Below, in pieces: positions 5,757 to 26,535 of a stretch of 64,000 nucleotides of DNA. The translations under genes were made by a program, and so were the position numbers. The DNA is from Jiella marina (GTDB lineage Bacteria; Pseudomonadota; Alphaproteobacteria; Rhizobiales; Rhizobiaceae). Where the stretch lies: NCBI RefSeq assembly GCF_024359545.1, contig NZ_JAKQZG010000003.1, positions 1 through 64,000 on the forward strand. Reading direction: 5' to 3'. The notes under the pieces are model-generated. The model searched no databases. It was given only the letters and a program-made list of their open reading frames with translations, and was not told where the DNA came from. Each line of letters begins with the position of its first letter. Position 1 is the stretch's first letter.

Positions 5757-7676
5757 TCAGGCGAGCATATCCTGCGAGAGGATATCTGCTTCTGGGAAGA
5801 GCCCAAGACCGCGAATATGAACTATCGCCGCTGCTGGATCGGCCACAAAAAGCACAACCACTAGGTCCTGCCGAGCGCGCGTGCAGCAAACGTAGAAGAG
5901 CCGTCGCGTCCGCTCCACGCTGGTTTCGCCACCTTCCTGCAAAGTCTTTTTGTCCCGCGCAGAAAGCTCTTTGAGCCCGAGGTATTTCTCGTAGGAGAAT
6001 TGAAAGTGCGTGGCTTCTTCGTCGTCGAGTACAACAAGTACCCGATCAAATTCGGCCCCTTTAACGCCTTGCTGGGTGGAGAAAGGCGATTGCTCGTTGA
6101 CGTAGGCCTGATATGGTCGGAGCTGATTGGCCGGACAGGCTAGGAATGCGGTCATTGAATTGATCTCGCTCGAAGGGCCTTTCTCGTCTACGTCATCATC
6201 GGCCTGAGCCTCGTTTACGGCAAAATCCTCCAGGTACGCGGACAGGCGGGGGTCGAGCTCCACCAAGCGACTTTTCTTGGCAAGCGTCAGCACGTCCCGG
6301 ATGGTCGCCTGCGACTGAGGCCCCATCAGCCCACCGACCTGATTGCTCACCGCATGAAGTTGATTGAGCCGCTCAGCGACGTTCACGCCATGAAGGTTGG
6401 CCTTAGCTAGCAACGGTGAATGGAGTCGAAGCAGCCGCATCGTGTCAAAATCTCGCCCGTCCCGAACGGCCTCGGCAAGCGGTAGGAGAAAAAACACCAG
6501 CGGGCGCAGCGGCCACGCGGTCGCATCCAGAAAACCATTCTTGAAAGCCTCAGGCGCGTTATCGTTGAGCGCCGCATACAAGTCGCCGAATCCCAATCGC
6601 TTCGCCGCCATGCGATGCACGATCACCAGCATTTTAACCGGGTCATTCTCGGCGGCGGGCAGCCACAACTCGTCATCGTTCGCGTTCGCAATCCACGCCC
6701 GAACCTGCGCCACGCGTTCGTCGCGATGACCATCAGCCGGCAAGACAAATAATCGCGTCGTTCCGACCACCGGCACTTCCTGCTCACCATTTTTTTCTCT
6801 TCGGCCACCGATCTGAACCAGATCGTCACCGTCACGCCGGATGGCGTTTGCAAGGTTCAATACCGAGGTGGGCGAACGGAAATTTTCCGGCTTGGGGATC
6901 GCTCGCCAATCGCCGGGTTTGGGAATTGTGCCAATGCCGGTGGGATAGATGCGCTGCATCGGGTCGCCGAAGAACCCAAGACAGAAGCGGGCCTGCTCCT
7001 GCTGCTGGATCGCCATCAACGCATCGACGATGATGGGGAAGGTATCTTGGCTCTCATCCACGAAAACGAAAGGAAATTGTTGTGCGACAAGAGTTCGGAA
7101 AAGCGGACGTTGAATCATCAACTGCGAAGCCATCTTGATGATGTCATCGTGGCCAAGGATACCTTTGGCGTAATCGCTTCCGGTTCCATAAGTGAAGCTA
7201 CCAACTTGCCTGATAGCCTCACGCTGCTGCTCGTAGCGCGTGATATCAAGGGCGTTCTTGTCTCGCGTTTTCTGCTGAACGCGTGGGCCAAAATTGGCGG
7301 CATCGTGCTGCAACTCTCCGATCCGTTCGTCGATCCGGTTTGCAACCCAACTGGCAATATCTTGTTGGAAGCCGCGTGCAATCGACCAAAGGAAACTATG
7401 AATCGTGGAAACGTGGACGAGAGGATTCTGTCCTACGTCCGCCCAAATCTCTCCGGCGGCGATCTCTGTATAGGTTATGCAGGCCACGCGTTGCCTGCGT
7501 AGCCGCAAACGCTCGCCGTGGATGGCAAGGATCGAGGCGAGCCCCTTGATCAGCGAAGTGGTTTTGCCCGAACCTGCCCCGGCAACCATGTTAAAACTGG
7601 TCGGCGGCTGAGCTTCCAAGCACTGCCGAAGATCTACATCGGCTTGTGTGTCAGGCTGTTGCGCACGGCTATTCAC
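5757..7676 (-). CDS. UvrD/Rep-type superfamily 1 helicase, Gabija GajB-like
   Basis: Predicted anti-phage helicase/NTPase partner of the OLD nuclease encoded immediately upstream. Visible SF1 motifs in order: Walker A AGAGSGKTT at residues 32-40; an ACITYT motif Ia; FVFVDESQDT as Walker B; GFFGDPMQRIYPTG as motif III; GVKGAEFDRVLVVLDDEE as motif V; RRLFYVCCTRARQDL as motif VI. The GTG start at 7676 overlaps the nuclease stop by 8 bases, indicating translational coupling; codons further upstream in this frame are the shadow of the nuclease gene. At 639 residues it is somewhat longer than the Bacillus GajB. In Gabija, GajA and GajB form one complex; that role is inferred here from gene pairing. 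Confidence 0.85.
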   Translation of the reverse strand: MNSRAQQPDTQADVDLRQCLEAQPPTSFNMVAGAGSGKTTSLIKGLASILAIHGERLRLRRQRVACITYTEIAAGEIWADVGQNPLVHVSTIHSFLWSIARGFQQDIASWVANRIDERIGELQHDAANFGPRVQQKTRDKNALDITRYEQQREAIRQVGSFTYGTGSDYAKGILGHDDIIKMASQLMIQRPLFRTLVAQQFPFVFVDESQDTFPIIVDALMAIQQQEQARFCLGFFGDPMQRIYPTGIGTIPKPGDWRAIPKPENFRSPTSVLNLANAIRRDGDDLVQIGGRREKNGEQEVPVVGTTRLFVLPADGHRDERVAQVRAWIANANDDELWLPAAENDPVKMLVIVHRMAAKRLGFGDLYAALNDNAPEAFKNGFLDATAWPLRPLVFFLLPLAEAVRDGRDFDTMRLLRLHSPLLAKANLHGVNVAERLNQLHAVSNQVGGLMGPQSQATIRDVLTLAKKSRLVELDPRLSAYLEDFAVNEAQADDDVDEKGPSSEINSMTAFLACPANQLRPYQAYVNEQSPFSTQQGVKGAEFDRVLVVLDDEEATHFQFSYEKYLGLKELSARDKKTLQEGGETSVERTRRLFYVCCTRARQDLVVVLFVADPAAAIVHIRGLGLFPEADILSQDMLA

Positions 7677-9963
7677 CGACCACACCGCCTTCCAGTTCGA
7701 CCTCAATTTCGAGATCGACATGTGCTTTAAGCCAAACCAGACCGTCACGGATGTAGGTCGGAACTTGCCACTCTTCCGGTCGGGCCGTAAGCACTCCAAG
7801 CGCGAACTTTGTCTTATCGAACTTGTCGCCGCTGACCCTTTTGTGAAGTCCCGCTGCCAACGCCGTCGGGTCCGCAACTGCACCACGTAAGCGTAGACCC
7901 AGTTTCCTCTGCTCCGCGCTTTGGCACCATTCGGCGTTTTCCAGCCCGAAGGCTTCTTCCAAAGTCCGACCAGCCAGCTCCACGTTCTGGCCATTCCATT
8001 CGACTGGAACGGGCGTCTGATACGTCACGCGGACACGGGGCGTGACATCCGCCGCAGTTTCTTTCTCCTGCTCCGTCGCGGCGAAAAGCTCGTCGATCAA
8101 TAGCTTGGCCGGAAGCCATTTTACGAGGGTCTGGTTGGAGGTGACTGCCCCGGCTACACCGGGCAGGCATTTTTTGCCGTAACGACGGGCGGGGGCAGGA
8201 TCGGCGGCATCGCCAGCTTGTGCGGCCGGACCATCGCCACCGAGTAGTCCATCGACGTGGTTGGCGGCGTTCATATCAAGGCCTTCGACTTCGATTTCAA
8301 GCTCGTCATCGTCGTCATCATCGCCGTCATGATTAGGAGGCAACAAGGTTACGCTGTCCACGTCGGTGATAATCAGCGTGACGATCCCGAGGAATTCAAT
8401 CAGCGATTTGAATTTGTGGCCGAAGGCACCGCCGACCTCCAGAATGCATATGCAGGAGGATCGCAACGATGTCGCCACCTTTGATATCATGATCGGGAGC
8501 AGCAACCGCTCGACATTGCCCTCCACGAGCACAGCGGCGTCAGAGAAGAACAAATCGCAGTGGGTGAGTTTCAAATATCGCTGCAGAAAATCGCGGTGTT
8601 CCGTTTCCTGCGCATAGAACGCGGAGAGATTAAGCACTTCAGTAGTTTGATCGTTTCCGACCAAATCGCGCCGAAAGTAGCGGATCGGCTGAAAGCCGCG
8701 TTCGTACAGGATGTGCGGCGAGTGCGTGGTAATGACTGCTTGTGTGGCGAACGATCCACCGGCCTCGCCCGGAATGACCAACAAGTCGAGAATGTTGCGA
8801 ATGAACACCTGCTGGAGCTGCGCGTGGAGGTGTGCTTCCGGTTCTTCGATGAAAATAAGATGTAGAGGCGCGCGATTCTCCTCTTCGGCTTTCCAGCGCT
8901 CTTGAAGGTCGAGCACTTCAACGACCATATAGATCAGGTTTTTGAAGCCCAGCCCATTGTACGTGTCGGGCAACATTACTGTTTGGGCGGCTTCGCCTAC
9001 GATGTAGTGAACGCGTGCATCCTGTGTCATGATGGAGGCTGGGTTCAGGGCCGACTTGATTTCGAGTCTCGGGTTGTTGAGGCCGGGATAACCCAAATGC
9101 TGCAATCGCTCCAACGTGTCCTTGAAAACTTCGGCAAGATGCCTGTCGAGGCCGACTTCAGATTCGAACAGTGCTTTGAGCGCTTGGTGGTCGTCTTGAC
9201 GCTGATCGAGATTACGCTGATAGAAGCGGCTTAGACGCTTCGACAAATCTTCTGAACGACCGCCACCAGATGCAGTTGATGGGTCCGCAAGGTGCCGCTG
9301 CGCATTCAGAAAATCGACCTTGATGAGCGATTTTAGTACAGCATTGCCGCCCGGTTCATTGCCCAATGGCAGCGGATGATACCCCTCCACCGCCCGAAAT
9401 TTCGCATCAAATTGCGTGTGGTCAAGGACGTAGTATCGCAGCTCATACTCGTGCCTCAGTTCTTTAAGCAGGTAAGCCGATAGCGATTTTGGCCAAGGCA
9501 CATAATCGCCTGCACCGCCGACCAGCGCCGCCGCTTTCGCCCGACCATCGTCGCGAGCGGTGCGGTAACGCTGGATCAATTCGGTAATGTTTTTGGGCGC
9601 AAGTTCGACGCGGATGCCCACAAGCGTCCCGGCCCAAGCGGTCGAAGGCAGAATGGGGATTACGAGGTAAAGGTCTTCGGCTCCCACCTCGAACCAAAGA
9701 TCGAGCGAGATGGTTGGAAACTCGGCCTCGGCGACCTCGGCATCTCGTTCGCCGATCTCATCAAGCAGCGGCCAAGCGTGCGAGCTAAAATCGTACAACG
9801 AGAAAGCATGTTTACCCCCCGTGAGAAACATCTGAATCGCCTGCGTCGCAGACGTTTTGCCGCTGTTGTTCGCTCCGACAAAAATGGAAATGTCGGATGC
9901 AAGCTCGACATGCACGTCCAATAGCCGCCTGAAATTGCGCAGTCGATAGGAATGTAGATGCAT
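7669..9963 (-). CDS. OLD-family ATPase/TOPRIM nuclease (class 2), Gabija GajA-like
   Basis: Start at 9963 (MHLHSYRLRN) with GGGGGAAG upstream. An SMC/RecF-like ATPase head is followed by a TOPRIM nuclease domain. Motifs: Walker A FVGANNSGKTS at about 28-38; Walker B/signature region FIEEPEAHLHAQ; TOPRIM glutamate in AAVLVEGNVERLLLP at about residue 478; TOPRIM DxD as ITDVDS at about 534. Class 2 OLD proteins are typically encoded beside a UvrD-like helicase, as here. At 764 residues it exceeds Bacillus GajA (about 580); part of the excess is an Asp-rich linker (DGDDDDDDEL) just after the DxD motif and a longer C-terminal region. Likely cytoplasmic anti-phage endonuclease. Confidence 0.85.
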   Translation of the reverse strand: MHLHSYRLRNFRRLLDVHVELASDISIFVGANNSGKTSATQAIQMFLTGGKHAFSLYDFSSHAWPLLDEIGERDAEVAEAEFPTISLDLWFEVGAEDLYLVIPILPSTAWAGTLVGIRVELAPKNITELIQRYRTARDDGRAKAAALVGGAGDYVPWPKSLSAYLLKELRHEYELRYYVLDHTQFDAKFRAVEGYHPLPLGNEPGGNAVLKSLIKVDFLNAQRHLADPSTASGGGRSEDLSKRLSRFYQRNLDQRQDDHQALKALFESEVGLDRHLAEVFKDTLERLQHLGYPGLNNPRLEIKSALNPASIMTQDARVHYIVGEAAQTVMLPDTYNGLGFKNLIYMVVEVLDLQERWKAEEENRAPLHLIFIEEPEAHLHAQLQQVFIRNILDLLVIPGEAGGSFATQAVITTHSPHILYERGFQPIRYFRRDLVGNDQTTEVLNLSAFYAQETEHRDFLQRYLKLTHCDLFFSDAAVLVEGNVERLLLPIMISKVATSLRSSCICILEVGGAFGHKFKSLIEFLGIVTLIITDVDSVTLLPPNHDGDDDDDDELEIEVEGLDMNAANHVDGLLGGDGPAAQAGDAADPAPARRYGKKCLPGVAGAVTSNQTLVKWLPAKLLIDELFAATEQEKETAADVTPRVRVTYQTPVPVEWNGQNVELAGRTLEEAFGLENAEWCQSAEQRKLGLRLRGAVADPTALAAGLHKRVSGDKFDKTKFALGVLTARPEEWQVPTYIRDGLVWLKAHVDLEIEVELEGGVVGE

Positions 9964-10073
9964 CGCGCTTCCCCCAAAACGAAGTCTATCGAATGATATC
10001 CTACTTGAAAATGCTAATTGCACGCCGTGTCGACGGTTTGATACGAAGTTGCGATGGTTTAGACTGGAAGTAT

Positions 10074-13120: not shown

Positions 13121-14044
13121 ATGAAACAGGATATCTATTCGAAGATCACCACTCACATCATTGCCGAGCTGGAACAGGGCGTCAGGCCGTGGATGAAGCC
13201 GTGGAGCGGCGAGCATGCCGCCAGGCGGATCACCCGTCCCTTGCGCGCGAACGGGGAGGCCTATCGCGGCATCAACGTCATCATGCTGTGGTCGGAGGCC
13301 GTCACCAAGGGCTTTGCCGCGCCGATCTGGATGACCTTCAAGCAGGCGCAGGAGCTTGGCGGGCATGTCCGGAAAGGGGAGCGCGGCAGCCCGGTGGTCT
13401 ATGCCAGCACCTTTTCCAAGACCGAAACCGACGAGAAAAGCGGCGAGGAGACCGAGCGGGATATCCCTTTCATGAAGGGCTACACCGTCTTCAATGCCGA
13501 GCAGGTCGAGGGGCTGCCGGAGCGCTTCTATCAACTGGCGCCGCCGCAGCTTGATCCGGTCGAGCGGAACGCCGAAGCGGACGCGTTCTTCGCCGCAACC
13601 TGCGCCGATATCCGGCATGGCGGGAGTTCCGCGCACTATTGCGGCGGCACTGATCACATCCAGATGCCGCCTTTCGAGGCGTTCCGGGATGCGGAAAGCT
13701 ACTACGCCACGCTCGCGCATGAAGCGACACACTGGACCAAGCACAAGGACCGGCTGGACCGCGATCTGGGCCGGAAGCGCTGGGGCGATGCGGGCTATGC
13801 CGCCGAGGAGCTGGTCGCCGAGCTTGGCGCGGCGTTTCTCTGCGCCGATCTCAAACTGACCCCGGAAGTGCGCGAGGATCACGCCGCCTATATCGGCCAC
13901 TGGCTCACCGTGCTGAAGCAGGATCCCCGCGCGATCTTCACCGCTGCCGCCCATGCGCAAAAAGCCGCTGATTACCTCAACGCGTTCAGCGCGGCGGGCG
14001 AAGGCATCGAGGCCCATACCGTGCCGCAGCAGGCAGCGGCGTAA
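13121..14044 (+). CDS. ArdC-type antirestriction protein / zincin-like metallopeptidase (DUF1738)
   Basis: 307 residues. The N-terminal domain (about 1-130, starting MKQDIYSKITTHIIAELE) matches the ArdC single-stranded-DNA-binding domain. The C-terminal domain is a zinc metallopeptidase with HEATH at 200-204 and a downstream Glu235 in EELVAELGAAFL as the likely third ligand. ArdC proteins protect incoming plasmid DNA from restriction during conjugation, and such genes are common in transfer-linked islands. It is followed after 10 bases by a gene that usually travels with it. The length is normal and all catalytic residues are present. Confidence 0.88.
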   Translation: MKQDIYSKITTHIIAELEQGVRPWMKPWSGEHAARRITRPLRANGEAYRGINVIMLWSEAVTKGFAAPIWMTFKQAQELGGHVRKGERGSPVVYASTFSKTETDEKSGEETERDIPFMKGYTVFNAEQVEGLPERFYQLAPPQLDPVERNAEADAFFAATCADIRHGGSSAHYCGGTDHIQMPPFEAFRDAESYYATLAHEATHWTKHKDRLDRDLGRKRWGDAGYAAEELVAELGAAFLCADLKLTPEVREDHAAYIGHWLTVLKQDPRAIFTAAAHAQKAADYLNAFSAAGEGIEAHTVPQQAAA

Positions 14045-15596: not shown

Positions 15597-16406
15597 ATGG
15601 CGCAGCGTGAGTTGCTTGCAGAAAACCTGTCCCTGCTATGCCGGGGGAAGAACGTCGCAGCCATCTGTCGTTCCATCGGCATCAATCGGGCGCAATTCAA
15701 TCGCTACCTTTCCGGCCAAGCGCTGCCTAGCGAGCGAAACGTCACGAAGATCGCCGCCTATTTTGGCGTCCAACCCACCGCGCTGTTCCAGGATGATGCG
15801 ATCGGATCGTCCTACCAACCCGATCGCCAGCGTCTGGGCATTCTGCATGAAGCTATGTCGCTGATTGGAGATGAGCGCCCGTCTTCTCTGGAGCCTGGGC
15901 TGTACTTCGTGACGTTCGGCTATCCGCCGGACCCCAAGACCGTTGTCCGCTCCGTTATGATCGTCGAGATCAAAGGCAATTTGACCGTCTTTCGGCGGCT
16001 GACGGGTTTCGGTGAGCGCGAGCGGACCTGGTGGTCGCTCTATGGCGGGAATCACATCGGCATCGTCTTGGACCGACGACGCTATCTCTATTTCATGTCA
16101 ATGAGCACGTTCGGCAATCGCGAGCCGTCCTTGTTGGCGATGGAATGGACGAGCACTCAGGTTCCGGTTCTGGTCGGGCACGGAACGGTCCTCGGTACAA
16201 GCGATTCGCTGCTGGTCCCCGCTGTCATCACGCGTTGCCGCCCACGCATGAAGCTCCGCACCGCGCTTCGGCAGTGCCGCGCCTACAACATCGATGACGC
16301 TGATATCGAGTCGTTTGTCGTCGACACGTTGACAGAGAAGGGCAATGAACTGGCGCATATGCTGAAGCCCCTCGATATCTCTATCAAAATCCGGCCTTCG
16401 AGCTGA
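15597..16406 (+). CDS. Helix-turn-helix regulator with large C-terminal domain
   Basis: 269 residues. An N-terminal XRE-like helix-turn-helix (about 5-60: AAICRSIGINRAQFNRYLSG, then NVTKIAAYFGV) is joined to an uncharacterised 200-residue domain with alternating strands (GLYFVTFGYPPDP, VMIVEIKGNLTVFRR, HIGIVLDRRRYLYFM) that may sense a ligand. It lies 204 bases upstream of the 33-residue peptide gene, in the same direction and with palindromes between them, so it is the natural candidate regulator of that cassette. No DNA-binding residue is obviously missing. The ligand is unknown. Confidence 0.75.
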   Translation: MAQRELLAENLSLLCRGKNVAAICRSIGINRAQFNRYLSGQALPSERNVTKIAAYFGVQPTALFQDDAIGSSYQPDRQRLGILHEAMSLIGDERPSSLEPGLYFVTFGYPPDPKTVVRSVMIVEIKGNLTVFRRLTGFGERERTWWSLYGGNHIGIVLDRRRYLYFMSMSTFGNREPSLLAMEWTSTQVPVLVGHGTVLGTSDSLLVPAVITRCRPRMKLRTALRQCRAYNIDDADIESFVVDTLTEKGNELAHMLKPLDISIKIRPSS

Positions 16407-16578: not shown

Positions 16579-16610
16579 TGTCAGCAACATCAAATCGCAA
16601 GGAGAGGTAG

Positions 16611-16712
16611 ATGAAAAACGATCAAAATGCGCCCGCTCTCAACATCAGCGTCAAGCGCATCAGCAACAACCCGAAGATTGCGACACCGGCAATGAACTTC
16701 AACAAGGTCTGA
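16611..16712 (+). CDS. Candidate ribosomal precursor peptide (33 aa)
   Basis: A short gene with a near-ideal ribosome site (AAGGAGAGGTAG) immediately before ATG. It reads MKNDQNAPALNISVKRISNN, then PKIATPAMNFNKV: polar, rich in Asn (seven residues) and Lys, without Cys, with Ser13, Ser18 and Thr25. It has no hydrophobic signal. A strong hairpin follows the stop, then a SagB-like dehydrogenase gene, which is the standard arrangement for a precursor peptide ahead of its modifying enzyme. The function as a modified-peptide substrate is inferred from size, position, ribosome site and hairpin; I cannot name a peptide class. Confidence 0.6.
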   Translation: MKNDQNAPALNISVKRISNNPKIATPAMNFNKV

Positions 16713-16720
16713 CGTTGCCT

Positions 16721-16746
16721 GCTTTGCCGCCAGCCGGCGGCAAAGC
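16721..16746 (+). terminator. Attenuator-like hairpin between peptide and dehydrogenase genes
   Basis: Perfect 11-base arms GCTTTGCCGCC and GGCGGCAAAGC with the loop AGCC, starting 8 bases after the peptide stop. It lacks a T-run, so it would act as a partial terminator or as a 3' stabiliser that keeps the peptide message more abundant than the enzyme message. Confidence 0.65.
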
Positions 16747-16766
16747 ATCTTCTCGGTTGTCAAGAA

Positions 16767-17873
16767 ATGCTCCAGCAAGCTCTGTATATTCGTGCCTCGA
16801 AGGCAGTCATTTTCTACCAGGAAGATGAGAATTTTATCGGATATAACTATCTGATCGATTGCTCCTTTGTATGCTCGCACGACCTGATGACGTTTTTATC
16901 TATGGTTCATCAATGGACGAGTTTTGCGGCAGTGCAAAAAATGCTTGGTTCGCCAGCATCCGCCGATCTCCGCTCCCAAATCGAGGATTTGATTGCCGTC
17001 GGGGCCCTTCTTTCAAGCGGCGGCGACCTGGCGGAACGCGAAGAAAACTTCCTAAGCAAATGGCACTGGGGCATTCCGGCGGCAGTTTTCCATCGGACCG
17101 TTCAGAACCGCCCCTCTACGACACTTGCGGAAGGGGAGGCCCGCCAACGCGAGCAAATAGCAAGCGCCCCGCTGCCCGAGCTCTATCGACGTCACCATGC
17201 GATGGCTAACGATACGATCCGGCTGGCGTGCCATACCGACGAAAACAGCGTGGTCTCACTGATGGCGCGGCGCCGCACGGTGCGCGAATGCGAGCCGGTG
17301 CCGATCGCGCTCGAGAGCCTGTCGCGCTGCCTTTACGCCGGGCTTGGGATTGTCGGCACGACGACCAATAATGTCGGCGTCGAATTGCCTTTGAAAATGA
17401 CGCCCTCCGGCGGCGCCAGAAACCCCTATGAAGCTTTCGTCTATGCGCGGGCGGTCACGGGACTGGCCGAAGGAATCTACCACTATTCGGCGTTCGATCA
17501 TTCGCTCAAGCCCATGGGCGGTCACGCCATGCCGGGATTTGCGGACCTGCTTGGCGGGCAGGAGTGGGCCGACGACAAGCCCTGCGTGGTCATGCTTTGC
17601 GCTTTCATGCAGCGCACGATGTGGAAATACAACGATGCGAATGCCTACCGGGTCGTGCTGATCGAAGCAGGGCATATCGGCCAGAACATCATGCTCGCCG
17701 CGACCGAACACGGTCTCTCAGCTTGCCCGACCGCCGCCATCAACCATTCCCTCGTCGCAGAGTGCCTCGGTCTGGAGGATTCCCTGACCCAGTCGCCGAT
17801 TTACGCGCTCACGCTGGGAGTTCCAAAGAAAGCAGAAAATGCGGGAGGCAATCGTGGAAAACCCCATCATTGA
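16767..17873 (+). CDS. SagB-type nitroreductase-fold dehydrogenase, putative peptide maturation enzyme
   Basis: 368 residues. The N-terminal 150 residues are a non-catalytic helical domain (VCSHDLMTFLSMVHQWTSF), as in SagB-like proteins. The C-terminal domain at about 165-355 is an FMN-dependent nitroreductase fold: LMARRRTVRECEP for FMN phosphate binding, SGGARNPYEAFV, HYSAFDHSL, and AGHIGQNIMLAATEHGLSAC near the end. SagB enzymes oxidise azoline rings in modified peptides; related enzymes desaturate peptide bonds. No YcaO cyclase or SagC partner is in the window. A start at 16767 gives a weak ribosome site, fitting lower expression than the peptide. Confidence 0.75.
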   Translation: MLQQALYIRASKAVIFYQEDENFIGYNYLIDCSFVCSHDLMTFLSMVHQWTSFAAVQKMLGSPASADLRSQIEDLIAVGALLSSGGDLAEREENFLSKWHWGIPAAVFHRTVQNRPSTTLAEGEARQREQIASAPLPELYRRHHAMANDTIRLACHTDENSVVSLMARRRTVRECEPVPIALESLSRCLYAGLGIVGTTTNNVGVELPLKMTPSGGARNPYEAFVYARAVTGLAEGIYHYSAFDHSLKPMGGHAMPGFADLLGGQEWADDKPCVVMLCAFMQRTMWKYNDANAYRVVLIEAGHIGQNIMLAATEHGLSACPTAAINHSLVAECLGLEDSLTQSPIYALTLGVPKKAENAGGNRGKPHH

Positions 17874-18039
17874 AATAGATGAGCCGCAAATATTCCCAAA
17901 AAATGACAGTAGGCCCTATATCAATGCCTTAAAACTCATTGCCCTGGACATCGGCGAGGATGATGAATTTCTCTGCTATTTGCTGGGCATGGCAATTCAG
18001 TATCTGGAAGAGAGCGGCTCACCTACCTGCAATCATTAA
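17854..18039 (+). CDS. Small acidic protein (61 aa) of the peptide cassette
   Basis: A GTG start at 17854 with GGGAGG at the right distance, overlapping the dehydrogenase end by 20 bases, so the two are translationally coupled. The sequence has an acidic N-terminus (ENPIIEIDEPQIF), a helical stretch (INALKLIALDIG, then EFLCYLLGMAIQYLEE) and the tail SGSPTCNH. It could be a helper that presents the peptide to the dehydrogenase, an immunity factor, or a second precursor whose Ser/Thr/Cys tail is the modified part. I do not recognise a family. Confidence 0.6.
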   Translation: MENPIIEIDEPQIFPKNDSRPYINALKLIALDIGEDDEFLCYLLGMAIQYLEESGSPTCNH

Positions 18040-21858: not shown

Positions 21859-22434
21859 TCATTCAGTATTTATCGTATCTGCTATGTCTGGTCGGTATAG
21901 CGCACGTTTGAGAGACCACGGCGCGACCCCAAGTTCGGCTGCAAGACTCGCGGTCGTGGCTCCCTTCTTCAGTTTTCGTCTAGCCCTCGCAAGCTGCTCG
22001 GGCTTAATCTTTGGCGGTCTGCCGAGTCGCTTGCCGCGTCGGCGCGCTGCCTCCAAGCCTTCTTTGGTTCGCTGCGAAAGCGTCCGCCTTTCGAATTCCG
22101 CCAATGCCGAGACAATGGTATAGACGAACATCCCGGCCGGTGTGGTCGTGTCGATATTGAGATTGGCGATCTGAAACCCGATGCCGCGTTGGCGCAGTTT
22201 TTCGGCTTCCGTCAGAGCATCGACCACCGATCGAAACGCGCGGTCGAGGTCCCAGACGACGAACAGGTCGCCCGGTTGGAGGCGCCGGAGTGCCGCATCG
22301 AAAACGGGCCGCTGCTTGCTGACAGCCGACAAAGTTTCGATGTGAAGTTCGTCGCAGATATCCCGCAGCCCATCAATCTGACGATCCGGGCGCTGTTCGT
22401 TCGTCGACACACGAATGTATGCAATCTTTTTCAT
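21859..22434 (-). CDS. Serine recombinase (resolvase/invertase family)
   Basis: 191 residues. The catalytic domain starts IAYIRVSTNEQRPDRQIDGL with Ser10 as the nucleophile, and VVWDLDRAFRSVVDALTEAE holds catalytic Arg residues. The long E helix LAEFERRTLSQRTKEGLEAA leads into a C-terminal helix-turn-helix (about 145-185: ATTASLAAELGVAPWSLKRAL). The length is normal for small resolvases and DNA invertases. It is the only recombinase in the window and lies 122 bases from repeat copy D, so the palindromic repeats are candidate recombination sites for it. That link is inference. Confidence 0.9.
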   Translation of the reverse strand: MKKIAYIRVSTNEQRPDRQIDGLRDICDELHIETLSAVSKQRPVFDAALRRLQPGDLFVVWDLDRAFRSVVDALTEAEKLRQRGIGFQIANLNIDTTTPAGMFVYTIVSALAEFERRTLSQRTKEGLEAARRRGKRLGRPPKIKPEQLARARRKLKKGATTASLAAELGVAPWSLKRALYRPDIADTINTE

Positions 22435-23760: not shown

Positions 23761-26535
23761 TCATGACATCTTGAGTCTTGGCGCGGCGTAGGTCTTCGAA
23801 GTGCCCGGCCTCTTCCGATCCAGCATCAACATCATCGAACTGGGCTCGATCTCGGGTGCCGTGTAGAACGTAGCGGCCTTTCTGTGCCGCGTCATCGCAA
23901 CATAGGCGAGGTTTGTGTCTAGCGTCCGGCTGGACAGGACGAAGCTACGATCGACCGTGCAGCCCTGGGAGCGGTGGATGCTGACGGCAAACCCGTGGTC
24001 GAAGAAAGGGAACTGACTCGGCGAGAAGCTGACCTTGCGGGCTTCGCCCTTTTCGTTCGGATCGAGACAGACGGTGAGTTTGTCATCGTCGAGCTTTTTG
24101 ACCGTTCCCAGCATGCCGTTCCGCACGTCCAGCGTACCATCGTTGCGGGTGAAGAGGAGACGGTCGCCTTCGGCAAAGGCTCGCGGACCGTGGATCGTGT
24201 CGAACAGGGTTTCCATCTTGACGCCTTCGCGCTCTCGGAGCCCCATCTTGATCGCCTGATTGATGGCGTGAACGTCTTTGCGCCGATGCGCGAGGGCAAG
24301 GAGTGAGACGGCCCCGCCATTGGCCTTTCGGTCTGCCAAATAGTCCTCGACCAGCGCGGCGATGGCTTCATCGCGATCGCCTTCACGGCGGACGGCACCG
24401 TGATCGGAATAGGCCTGAATGGCGGCGTCGGTGTCTCCGGCAGCGAGAGCACGTGACGCTTCGCGCTGCCAGTCGACATCCTGACGGCGGATTTCGGTGA
24501 GCCGCGCTGCGCCATAGGTTTGGACGATCTCCTTGAACGGCGTTCCGGCCTCGATCGGCTGAAGCTGGTCAGGATCGCCGACGAGCACGAGCTTGCAGCC
24601 GCGCTCATGCAGCGCCTTGGCGACTCGCTGCAACTGTCGCGTCCCGACCATCCCAGCTTCGTCGATGACGACGATATCGCGGTGGCCGACCGGCTCATAT
24701 CCGGCCTTCCAACCCGCTTCGAGGGAAGCCAGCGTACGGGCGGAAATACCCGAAGCGCTTTGAAGGCTATCCGCCGCCTTGCCGGCCAGGGCAGCACCGT
24801 GGACGCGGTAGCCCTGCGCTTCCCAAGCCTGACGTGCCACGGCCAGAAGCGTGCTCTTGCCAGCACCGGCGAGGCCAACGACGGCGGAGAGCTGGTTGGG
24901 CTTCAGGACGTGCTTGATCGCTGCAATCTGTTCATCGCTGAGCTGGGCGCCGAACCGCCGTCCCAGCCGAGCGCTTTCCTTCGCGATTGCGTTCTCGACA
25001 TGGTGTGCCCCGACGCCAAACCCACCAGCATGAGCCATTTCGTTGGCGGTTGCCGCCAGCTTTGCCTCTGCGTCCGCGAACTCTTTTGTCGTGAAGGCTT
25101 GCGGGTCGGTAGCTGGCAGCCAGACCAGCTTGTCCGAGCGAAACACCGTCTCGGTTGCGGTCTGGAGCGTGAGCGGATCATCGAGAAAGTCGGACAGCCG
25201 CGTGATGATCTCGGCACGGGTGAAGTGGGCCTTCTTATCCGACAGCACATCGAGAATGCGCTCGGGCTTTGCATTAATCTGCGCCTTCGTGAGAGGCGCG
25301 TCATCCGGCGGCAGATAGAGCGGCTGCGCCGGATCGGGATGATAGACCCGTCGGCCACTCTTCGGCTCCCGGTCGCGAAAGGCGCGTTCGAGCTCCTGCT
25401 GTAGGCTCGGCGTATTCGATTCGCGCTCCAGCGCGCGCCGTTCGGCAAGATGCCGGTCAATCAGTGCCTGAGTCTCGCGGCGGTCGCGTTCGGCGCATAC
25501 AGCTGCATCGCGCTCCAGTTTCTCCTGAATCCGCTTGTCTTGTCCTGTCAGCCGCGCCCAGACCGCCCGCATGCCATTTGGCAGCGCCGCTTGTCGCGCC
25601 TTAATCTCGGTGATGCATCGCCGCTCGTGCTTCGCGGCCAGCGCTTGCCGTTCTTCCCGCTGGCGGCGCACGAGATCGATCAGACGATGGCCGAACGTTT
25701 GGGTTCCAGCCTCGTGCTTCGCTTTCTCCGGCTCGAAATCTCGCCCACCCCCAGCAAGCAAACGCTGCGCTTCCTCGACAGATGGGAGGTCGCTGGGCTC
25801 ACCAAAGCGGGCACGCAACTCTTTCGGCTTTACGCCGCACCAGCGCGAGAGGGAATAGACCTCGCCATCGGCATCGACGGCGACAAAGCCGCGCCGGTCG
25901 CCGCGCGCGAGGCAAAAGCCCTGTTCCCGCAATGCCGCCGCGAAGGCTGCACAGCAGTCGGATGCCTCCCAGCACTTCTTGAAGAACGTCTTAAGCGCGG
26001 CAGGATCGCGCTTAACCCGACTTGCCTGGCCGGCTTCAGCATGGGTGTAGGATGATGCATCGCGGTCGTCGGTGTTTTGAAAACCCGACGGCATCTCCCA
26101 GCCATGCTCCTGATAGAGAGAACGGGCGATATCCATCAGCCGAAGCTTGTAGTGCGGCAGGTTGATCGCCCGCATCTTGCCGACATCAATCCGCGACCAC
26201 ACACAATGCGCGTGACGGCGGCCCTTCTTCTCATGGAAGACGATCGCACGCGGCTGGCCGCTCAGGCCGAGACGGCGCTCGATGTCAGCGATCGCCTTCT
26301 CGAAATCGGCGACGGAGACGTTCGCCGATTTCGGCGGGCTGAGGCTCAGCGAAAAGAGATATTGTTGGCATTTCGTGCCGAGTGAGATCGCCTCGGCCTC
26401 CTTGAAGGCGCCGATCAGATCGTCGGCGAGAAACCCGCGCAGCTCATGGATCACCGCATGCTCGTTATCTTCGACATTGAGCAAATGCAGCGCCAAGTCC
26501 CGCCCGTTGGCGCGCTGGTTGCCCTTGAGGATCAT
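23761..26535 (-). CDS. Relaxase/helicase of the mobilization module (TraA-like)
   Basis: 924 residues. The N-terminal relaxase domain (about 1-200) has HEKKGRRHAHCVWSRID with the metal-binding His triad pattern of MOB-P-type relaxases. A coiled linker follows (about 290-400). The C-terminal half is a RecD/TraI-like SF1 helicase: Walker A VVGLAGAGKSTLL at about 565, VVIDEAGMVGTRQL as Walker B, LVGDPDQLQPIEAG, and FAVSIHRSQGCTVDRSF near the end. It would nick at an origin of transfer, stay bound to the strand and unwind it. It overlaps mobC by ATGA. No coupling protein or secretion genes are present, so the island is mobilizable rather than self-transferring. Confidence 0.88.
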   Translation of the reverse strand: MILKGNQRANGRDLALHLLNVEDNEHAVIHELRGFLADDLIGAFKEAEAISLGTKCQQYLFSLSLSPPKSANVSVADFEKAIADIERRLGLSGQPRAIVFHEKKGRRHAHCVWSRIDVGKMRAINLPHYKLRLMDIARSLYQEHGWEMPSGFQNTDDRDASSYTHAEAGQASRVKRDPAALKTFFKKCWEASDCCAAFAAALREQGFCLARGDRRGFVAVDADGEVYSLSRWCGVKPKELRARFGEPSDLPSVEEAQRLLAGGGRDFEPEKAKHEAGTQTFGHRLIDLVRRQREERQALAAKHERRCITEIKARQAALPNGMRAVWARLTGQDKRIQEKLERDAAVCAERDRRETQALIDRHLAERRALERESNTPSLQQELERAFRDREPKSGRRVYHPDPAQPLYLPPDDAPLTKAQINAKPERILDVLSDKKAHFTRAEIITRLSDFLDDPLTLQTATETVFRSDKLVWLPATDPQAFTTKEFADAEAKLAATANEMAHAGGFGVGAHHVENAIAKESARLGRRFGAQLSDEQIAAIKHVLKPNQLSAVVGLAGAGKSTLLAVARQAWEAQGYRVHGAALAGKAADSLQSASGISARTLASLEAGWKAGYEPVGHRDIVVIDEAGMVGTRQLQRVAKALHERGCKLVLVGDPDQLQPIEAGTPFKEIVQTYGAARLTEIRRQDVDWQREASRALAAGDTDAAIQAYSDHGAVRREGDRDEAIAALVEDYLADRKANGGAVSLLALAHRRKDVHAINQAIKMGLREREGVKMETLFDTIHGPRAFAEGDRLLFTRNDGTLDVRNGMLGTVKKLDDDKLTVCLDPNEKGEARKVSFSPSQFPFFDHGFAVSIHRSQGCTVDRSFVLSSRTLDTNLAYVAMTRHRKAATFYTAPEIEPSSMMLMLDRKRPGTSKTYAAPRLKMS

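Follow-up and report, generated by a model that had tools for sequence, protein, structure and literature searches.

Oxidases of the SagB/ThcOx/McbC kind, the azoline dehydrogenases of linear azol(in)e-containing peptide (LAP) and cyanobactin pathways, share their nitroreductase fold with several enzymes of other chemistries. In the available text of a preprint (PMC12636437), the nitroreductase domain of PflD is described as making Z-dehydro-Phe in a ribosomally synthesised and post-translationally modified peptide (RiPP) of Pseudomonas; nitroreductases unlinked to YcaO are called rare in RiPP clusters and functionally uncharacterised, and are suggested to be makers of other dehydroamino acids. 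Cyclodipeptide oxidases, which have the same fold, consume aromatic-containing cyclodipeptides well, according to the accessible part of PMC7044140. Here we describe a locus of Jiella marina (assembly GCF_024359545.1), located in positions 1 to 64,000 of contig NZ_JAKQZG010000003.1, in which a short peptide gene directly precedes a gene for a SagB-type oxidase. This whole stretch of 64,000 nucleotides is called the window. Together with an upstream regulator gene the pair forms a cassette that has the look of a peptide family not described before, made on ribosomes and then chemically modified. Its features, in their order along the forward (+) strand, are as follows.

15597..16406, + strand: XRE-type regulator, with an N-terminal helix-turn-helix (HTH) and about 200 C-terminal residues without a known family (HTH_31 match, linkage)
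16600..16607, + strand: ribosome-binding site AGGAGAGG of the peptide gene (read from the sequence)
16611..16712, + strand: precursor-like peptide gene, 33 codons (list of open reading frames (ORFs), tail profile, codon test)
16720..16747, + strand: hairpin between peptide and oxidase, with a 12-bp stem and a 4-nt loop (folding)
16767..17873, + strand: SagB-type oxidase of the flavin mononucleotide (FMN) nitroreductase fold, 368 amino acids (TIGR03605, TIGR04511, PF00881, predicted structure)
17839..18039, + strand: small accessory protein gene overlapping the oxidase gene, 66 codons from ATG 17839 or 61 from GTG 17854 (ORF list, profile)

The peptide gene, its ribosome site, the hairpin and the SagB-type dehydrogenase had all been proposed in an initial annotation of this DNA, and each was found again. 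The linkage of the three genes, the conserved tail of the peptide, the codon selection on it, the hairpin and the absence of YcaO are established. The mark of a RiPP locus, an encoded precursor beside its enzyme, is present at all 27 loci, and the enzyme presumably modifies the peptide. We regard the pairing of peptide and oxidase as well supported and highly probable. Among the matches listed from the open-access literature, judged by titles and the openings of abstracts and not covering subscription journals, there was no account of this cassette.

The pfl/pos clusters of Pseudomonas, in which PflD is a fusion of a multinuclear non-heme iron-dependent oxidative enzyme (MNIO) with a nitroreductase, likewise use a YcaO-free SagB-type nitroreductase domain on a ribosomal peptide, as far as the accessible parts of PMC12636437 and PMC7726476 describe them. 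In contrast to these clusters, the 368-residue oxidase carries no MNIO fusion, and a HEXXH enzyme, an acetyltransferase and a dedicated transporter do not recur in the shared flanks of the cassette; its precursor of about 30 residues has a conserved tail of its own and a dedicated XRE regulator. At one other locus (L109), a 655-aa frame beside a HEXXH-motif gene, which we read as PflD/PosD-like, scored 131 bits against the profile of the cassette oxidases. A second comparison is with the system of TIGR04509 (a putative modified peptide), TIGR04510 (which we take to be a cyclase) and TIGR04511 (SagB_rel_DH_2). Among NCBIfam models, the cassette oxidase scores highest with TIGR04511, at 153.5 bits, which is below that model's cut-off of 240. 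The window peptide, however, gave no match to TIGR04509 (nor to any other NCBIfam or Pfam model up to E 1), and an XRE-type regulator stands in place of the cyclase-like protein, the cyclase look of that neighbour at L107 being our own reading. A TIGR04509 peptide lies beside the oxidase in seven of seven cases, and all five TIGR04511 genomes searched (L103-L107: G1128, G1297, G1081, G1174, G1375) are YcaO-free. From the SagB/ThcOx/McbC enzymes the cassette differs in having no linked YcaO and a peptide tail often free of Cys, Ser and Thr, while its oxidase has the same fold, a W-K-Y stretch that aligns with ThcOx, and an alignment with ThcOx over both domains. BmdC, the oxidase of the bacillamide non-ribosomal peptide synthetase (NRPS), acts on an NRPS-bound thiazoline and has a RiPP recognition element (RRE) called a remnant in the available text of PMC8795117; the cassette oxidase, in contrast, has an adjoining peptide gene. 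For the cyclodipeptide oxidase AlbA/AlbB, as portrayed in the accessible part of PMC11055893, the comparison extends to the AlbA fold. A small partner, which in that system is of the four-helix AlbB type, is not general in the cassette group, and no cyclodipeptide synthase was seen in the cassette, although no search aimed at one was made.

Four loci that we read as Pseudomonas-like (L108, L110, L111, L112; G1155, G1286, G1332, G1304) have SagB oxidases of another kind, again with no YcaO linked to them. These oxidases have their own upstream peptide of 21-23 residues, e.g. MKSISLESKKIANLACLAAAKSR. At L108 and L110, a protein of about 340 residues and a major facilitator superfamily (MFS) transporter follow; both assignments, the former as diiron oxygenase-like, are our reading. 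The tumour-inducing plasmid pTi6.2 of Rhizobium rhododendri (L035) has, after a SagB oxidase, an unknown protein (some 355 residues) and an MFS transporter.

Relatives of the oxidase were sought in genome samples of the order (n=397), the family (n=297) and the class (n=385), with limits of E 1e-10 in the order and E 1e-40 in class and family. The numbers of genomes with a nearly full-length relative of at least 41% identity are 13 (order), 17 (family) and 1 (class), each including the genome of the window. This amounts to 26 distinct genomes, again with the window's own, and the relatives are 41-50% identical to it; that of G322 (45%) was aligned across residues 68-353 only. A named contig beyond these genomes, from Mesorhizobium sp. 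B2-3-4 (L029), brings the peptide-bearing loci to 27 (the window, L029, L036-L047, L070-L082), L028 being the locus of G029 found again. Since L029 groups tightly with genus g3 (G069, G136, G209, G309) in the oxidase tree, g3 is referred to as the Mesorhizobium group. In that tree the 27 peptide-associated oxidases form one group (support 82/85; 85% of bootstrap trees), with L030, L031, L083, L033, L034 and L035 outside it; L103, L104 and L113 fill less than 16% of the columns. The outgroup oxidases are those of G1025 (35% identity) and of two Massilia contigs (L030, L031; 36-37%). Weaker matches of partial length (28-34% identity) were obtained in 12 further genomes of the order sample. The cassette was not found in the other species of the window's genus (five of five sampled), and no oxidase relative was found when viral contigs were searched.

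Upstream of the oxidase, a frame of 25-41 residues with a conserved end is present in all 27 loci of the group, the kind of support that the initial annotation had asked of close homologues. The window peptide, MKNDQNAPALNISVKRISNNPKIATPAMNFNKV, consists of a variable N-terminal part with an L-x-[V/I] stretch and the conserved C-terminal tail ATPAMNFNKV. It had been described as Cys-free and Asn-rich; this is true of the window peptide (7 Asn, no Cys), but not a trait of the family, as Asn makes up 6.1% of the residues across the 25 distinct peptides. The N-terminal halves are variable and lysine-rich, most of them having an L-x-[V/I]-like stretch (20/25 under a loose pattern), and the tails follow an approximate consensus F-V-x-[P/x]-G-M-x-[Y/F]-[N/D]-K-[R/V]. 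The most conserved feature of the tail is an aromatic residue among the last five positions (24/25): position -4 from the end is Tyr or Phe in 22 peptides and Leu in one, and two have Phe at -3. Next come Lys at -2 (20 peptides), Asn or Asp at -3 (18), Gly at -7 (16) and Met at -6 (12). Homologues without the short gene, which the initial annotation would have held against the pairing, are distant ones (about 31-37% identity). No tail-bearing frame was found upstream of the outgroup oxidases L030, L031 and L083, the two Massilia loci having conserved short frames there that lack the tail; none was seen among the short upstream frames listed for L033-L035, or among the frames listed at the weaker oxidase match of G023 (L113). 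On the plasmid record NZ_CP084754.1 (L032/L071), the listed gene table, an incomplete one, does not contain the peptide gene.

Short ORFs are frequent (137 of at least 30 aa in the six frames of 12 kb), and the peptide frame could in principle be one of chance beside an ordinary nitroreductase. In the tail test, a profile of the last ten residues was rebuilt without the tested locus and its near relatives, and the peptide was ranked among 17-46 short frames with ribosome sites per stretch of 10.8-19 kb. It came first in 24 of the 27 loci, by more than 10 bits in 18 and by less than 1 bit in two. In the window it scored 17.8 compared with 1.1 for the runner-up, among 34 candidate ORFs of a 19-kb stretch. 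The three remaining loci are L039, whose peptide, identical to that of L040, was removed by the ribosome-site filter, and L073 and L075, whose tails are one residue shorter. This result is strong, though not fully independent. When pairs of close relatives were examined codon by codon, silent changes per site exceeded replacement changes in 15 of 15 pairs, with ps/pn ratios from 2.65 to 27 in the 12 pairs having replacements and no replacements in the other three; the pairs come from four groups and are mutually non-independent. Wherever a test was possible, the codons of the peptide frame show purifying selection, and the conservation at codon level for which the initial annotation had asked is present. 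A chance ORF is refuted by the tail-profile and codon tests; with tail and position conserved in 27/27 loci, a ribosome site and a hairpin, we give this explanation practically no weight.

The regulator accompanies the pair closely. A homologue is located upstream, on the same strand and within 2.5 kb, at 26 of 30 oxidase loci, i.e. at 26 of the 27 that have the peptide (L046 lacks it); none was found at the outgroup loci L030, L031 and L083. The window's regulator matches HTH_31 at 27.4 bits (cut-off 27). Of the 297 genomes in the family sample, 17 have regulator relatives at E<=1e-30, and exactly these 17 also have the pair of peptide and oxidase; another 58 gave weaker matches, many of them confined to the HTH. 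Regulator and oxidase distances correlate (Mantel rho 0.68, 0/2000 permutations) over 25 loci, L039 with its split regulator frame and the regulator-free L046 being left out. The regulator belongs to the cassette, and had been missed in the initial annotation.

Three Mesorhizobium-group genomes have a second strong regulator copy elsewhere (L150, L151, L152). No second peptide-like frame was found beside these copies; a gene that we read as acyltransferase-like adjoins those in L150 and L152. L080 has two extra short frames matching the regulator profile, between regulator and peptide. When operators were sought upstream of the peptide, the palindromes varied among loci and a shared operator is not claimed; TTCGCA half-site palindromes upstream of the peptide gene in L042, L044 and L079 are possible operators.

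Between peptide and oxidase, the RNA is predicted to be unusually stable. In the window, a stretch of 73 nt that runs from the peptide stop into the oxidase gene has a folding energy of -30.0 kcal/mol (z -2.97), and the stability of the hairpin region is reached by 1% of 300 random 50-mers from the locus. Over the 27 loci, the stretch from peptide stop to oxidase has a mean z of -2.98, with z below -2 in 22. Again in 22 of 27, no more than 2% of random 50-mers from the locus equal the first 50 nt after the stop in stability; the other five are L072, L074 and L076, where a hairpin starts later, L078 (3%) and L080, which has about 8 nt between peptide and oxidase. The hairpin persists across lineages while its stem sequences change, as would be expected if it controls the ratio of peptide to enzyme. 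Because only some of the hairpins have a T run behind them, the element is not called a terminator in general; in the window it is probably an attenuator or an mRNA stabiliser between peptide and enzyme.

Such a hairpin right after the peptide stop, along with the dedicated regulator, would also suit a peptide that serves regulation, as a leader or as a small protein (an XRE ligand or translational attenuator), the oxidase then acting on a small molecule. Other SagB relatives work with NRPS, as the accessible text of PMC8795117 relates for BmdC, and a relative of the oxidase lies on a Sinorhizobium plasmid among AMP-binding and phosphopantetheinyl-transferase genes. Against this stand the selection on the amino-acid sequence, the specific tail, the fact that the hairpin by itself would account for attenuation, and the RRE-like N-terminal domain that the enzyme, by its predicted structure, seems to retain. 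We consider a purely regulatory peptide unlikely.

The oxidase scored 103.3 bits with TIGR03605, the SagB family model (cut-off 78.4), and 71.8 bits with PF00881; it has no further Pfam domain. In the predicted structure, residues ~160-355 form the nitroreductase fold with Lys287-Tyr288, and residues ~14-80 are arranged as strand-strand-strand-helix-helix-helix (pLDDT, a predicted local confidence, about 50). From this topology, the N-terminal domain seems RRE-like. No separate RRE protein appeared among the structure matches listed for the oxidase, which is uninformative.

A SagB relative with a Lys-Tyr pair might oxidise azolines that a distant YcaO makes on Ser, Thr or Cys, and a YcaO does exist somewhere in 10 of the 26 peptide-bearing genomes. 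It is on a different contig in nine of these, all multi-contig assemblies in which the true distance is not fixed, and 1.7 Mb away in G136. The other 16 genomes are YcaO-free, four of them being 76-88% complete. Among the 16 is the window's own, whose whole assembly (99.08% complete) gave 0 matches to PF02624; the absence of YcaO noted in the initial annotation thus extends to the genome. Moreover, Cys, Ser and Thr are all missing from the last nine residues in 8 of the 25 distinct peptides, and 23 are Cys-free throughout. Hence, azole chemistry is excluded as the general reaction of the cassette; the azole explanation is refuted as a general rule and keeps only a very slight probability, and preference goes to the earlier suggestion that the dehydrogenase carries out a different chemistry.

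The aromatic residue at -4/-3 (Tyr, Phe, once Leu) is, judged from conservation, the most likely candidate site. Desaturation of this residue is the chemistry that we favour, by a modest degree. Alternatively, precursor and oxidase may be paired as described, with the oxidation taking place at Met, Lys or the backbone, or with a ring formed between tail residues. The conservation of Gly -7 (16/25), Met -6 (12/25), Lys -2 (20/25) and Asn/Asp -3 (18/25), and the occurrence of Leu besides Tyr and Phe at -4, speak for this alternative; it is opposed by the aromatic residue being the top conserved feature, and by the nearest chemical precedents, which dehydrogenate aromatic residues. We take it to be a possible, though less probable, course.

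The small gene downstream had been described as coupled to the oxidase gene and 61 residues long. The two genes do overlap, by 35 nt if the ATG is the start and by 20 nt if it is the GTG, which lies five codons further on; the length of 61 applies from the GTG only. Up to E 1 the protein matched neither an NCBIfam nor a Pfam model, and in its own genome its profile matched, at E<=0.01, only the protein itself (E 1.2e-25). With flanks of 1.5-8 kb searched, clear relatives are found near 7 of 27 cassettes: the window, five Mesorhizobium-group loci, where they are downstream of the oxidase, and L038, where the copy is upstream and on the opposite strand. Four more loci gave weak matches (E 0.04-0.85), which became strong only once they were added to the model. 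The protein is accessory. A chaperone or AlbB-like partner role is possible. The alternative that its SGSPTCNH tail is the true substrate of the dehydrogenase was rejected, the relatives having no such CNH tail and the protein being near a minority of the cassettes.

The surroundings of the cassette in the window include the following genes.

5757..7994, - strand: Gabija GajB, one of a defence pair
7669..10023, - strand: Gabija GajA, about 6 kb from the cassette
13121..14044: ArdC antirestriction protein
21859..22434: resolvase
23761..26535: MobA/VirD2-type relaxase with a helicase part

ArdC, resolvase and relaxase probably mark a conjugative or integrative element, and the mobile island with defence genes noted earlier is real. 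The toxin or defence product deduced from it has weak grounds and is not supported, since families like the Gabija and mobility genes near the window's cassette do not recur near its relatives. When flank frames of at least 90 aa were clustered over 30 loci, some with shortened flanks, no defence or mobility family recurred near the relatives, and oxidase, regulator and small protein had no match among the PADLOC models. Nine of the 30 loci have ATP-binding cassette (ABC)-type ATPases no more than about 9 kb away, in scattered positions and on both strands. With regulator, oxidase and frames antisense to the regulator set aside, one dehydrogenase-like family is present in 5 of 30 loci, and all others are in at most 4, several within the Mesorhizobium group. 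No consistently linked protease or exporter was found among these shared flank families.

Taken together, a minimal YcaO-free RiPP-type cassette, whose oxidase docks the peptide through its RRE-like domain and dehydrogenates a residue of the tail, is the explanation to which we lean somewhat. The peptide would be made in excess over the enzyme, the hairpin damping read-through. The L-x-[V/I] stretch in its N-terminal part may pair with the RRE-like domain, as the topology suggests, and docking would bring the conserved tail G-M-x-[Y/F]-[N/D]-K-[R/V] to the flavin. The nitroreductase domain would then take two hydrogens from the tail (-2 Da), the likeliest place being the aromatic residue, between Calpha and Cbeta, with dehydro-Phe or dehydro-Tyr as the product. 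In whole or in part, the tail so modified may serve as a signal or effector in connection with the dedicated regulator.

Several points weigh against this explanation. The oxidase model is of low confidence (mean pLDDT 52, about 50 in the RRE-like domain); BmdC and ThcOx aligned with it including the N-terminal part, but at a root-mean-square deviation of 9-11 A, and RRE or PqqD sequence models gave no match to the oxidase. The candidate modification site is drawn from conservation, and Lys -2 and Gly -7 are nearly as conserved as the aromatic residue. The peptides were initially chosen by eye out of a few frames at each locus, which means that the profile test was not blind, and there are near ties at L038 (0.8 bits) and L046 (0.2 bits). 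Peptide-tail distances correlate weakly with oxidase distances (rho 0.16; 67/500 shuffles as high), as they do with regulator distances (rho 0.16; 50/500). The support of the oxidase group is only moderate, and the lack of a consistently linked protease or exporter is unusual for a secreted RiPP.

Precursors of pyrroloquinoline quinone (PQQ) and mycofactocin combine a conserved tail with a variable leader. From the fixed regulator, the fixed tail, the variable leader and the lack of a linked exporter or protease, we infer that a signal or cofactor fits the cassette better than a variable antibiotic. The conserved tail with its variable leader, the missing exporter and the strict linkage to the regulator fit an intracellular signal. 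Tentatively, then, a stand-alone SagB-type oxidase might make a dehydro-aromatic tail that is not exported and is read as an intracellular small-molecule signal or cofactor by the XRE regulator, a three-gene peptide-hormone circuit in a Gram-negative bacterium.

Small peptide genes of this kind are easily missed in gene tables. With one peptide, one oxidase and one regulator in 26 sampled genomes of the order, the cassette is a minimal natural test of the non-YcaO nitroreductases. Should its product turn out to be a signal, rhizobia-like bacteria would have in this cassette a peptide circuit of three genes.
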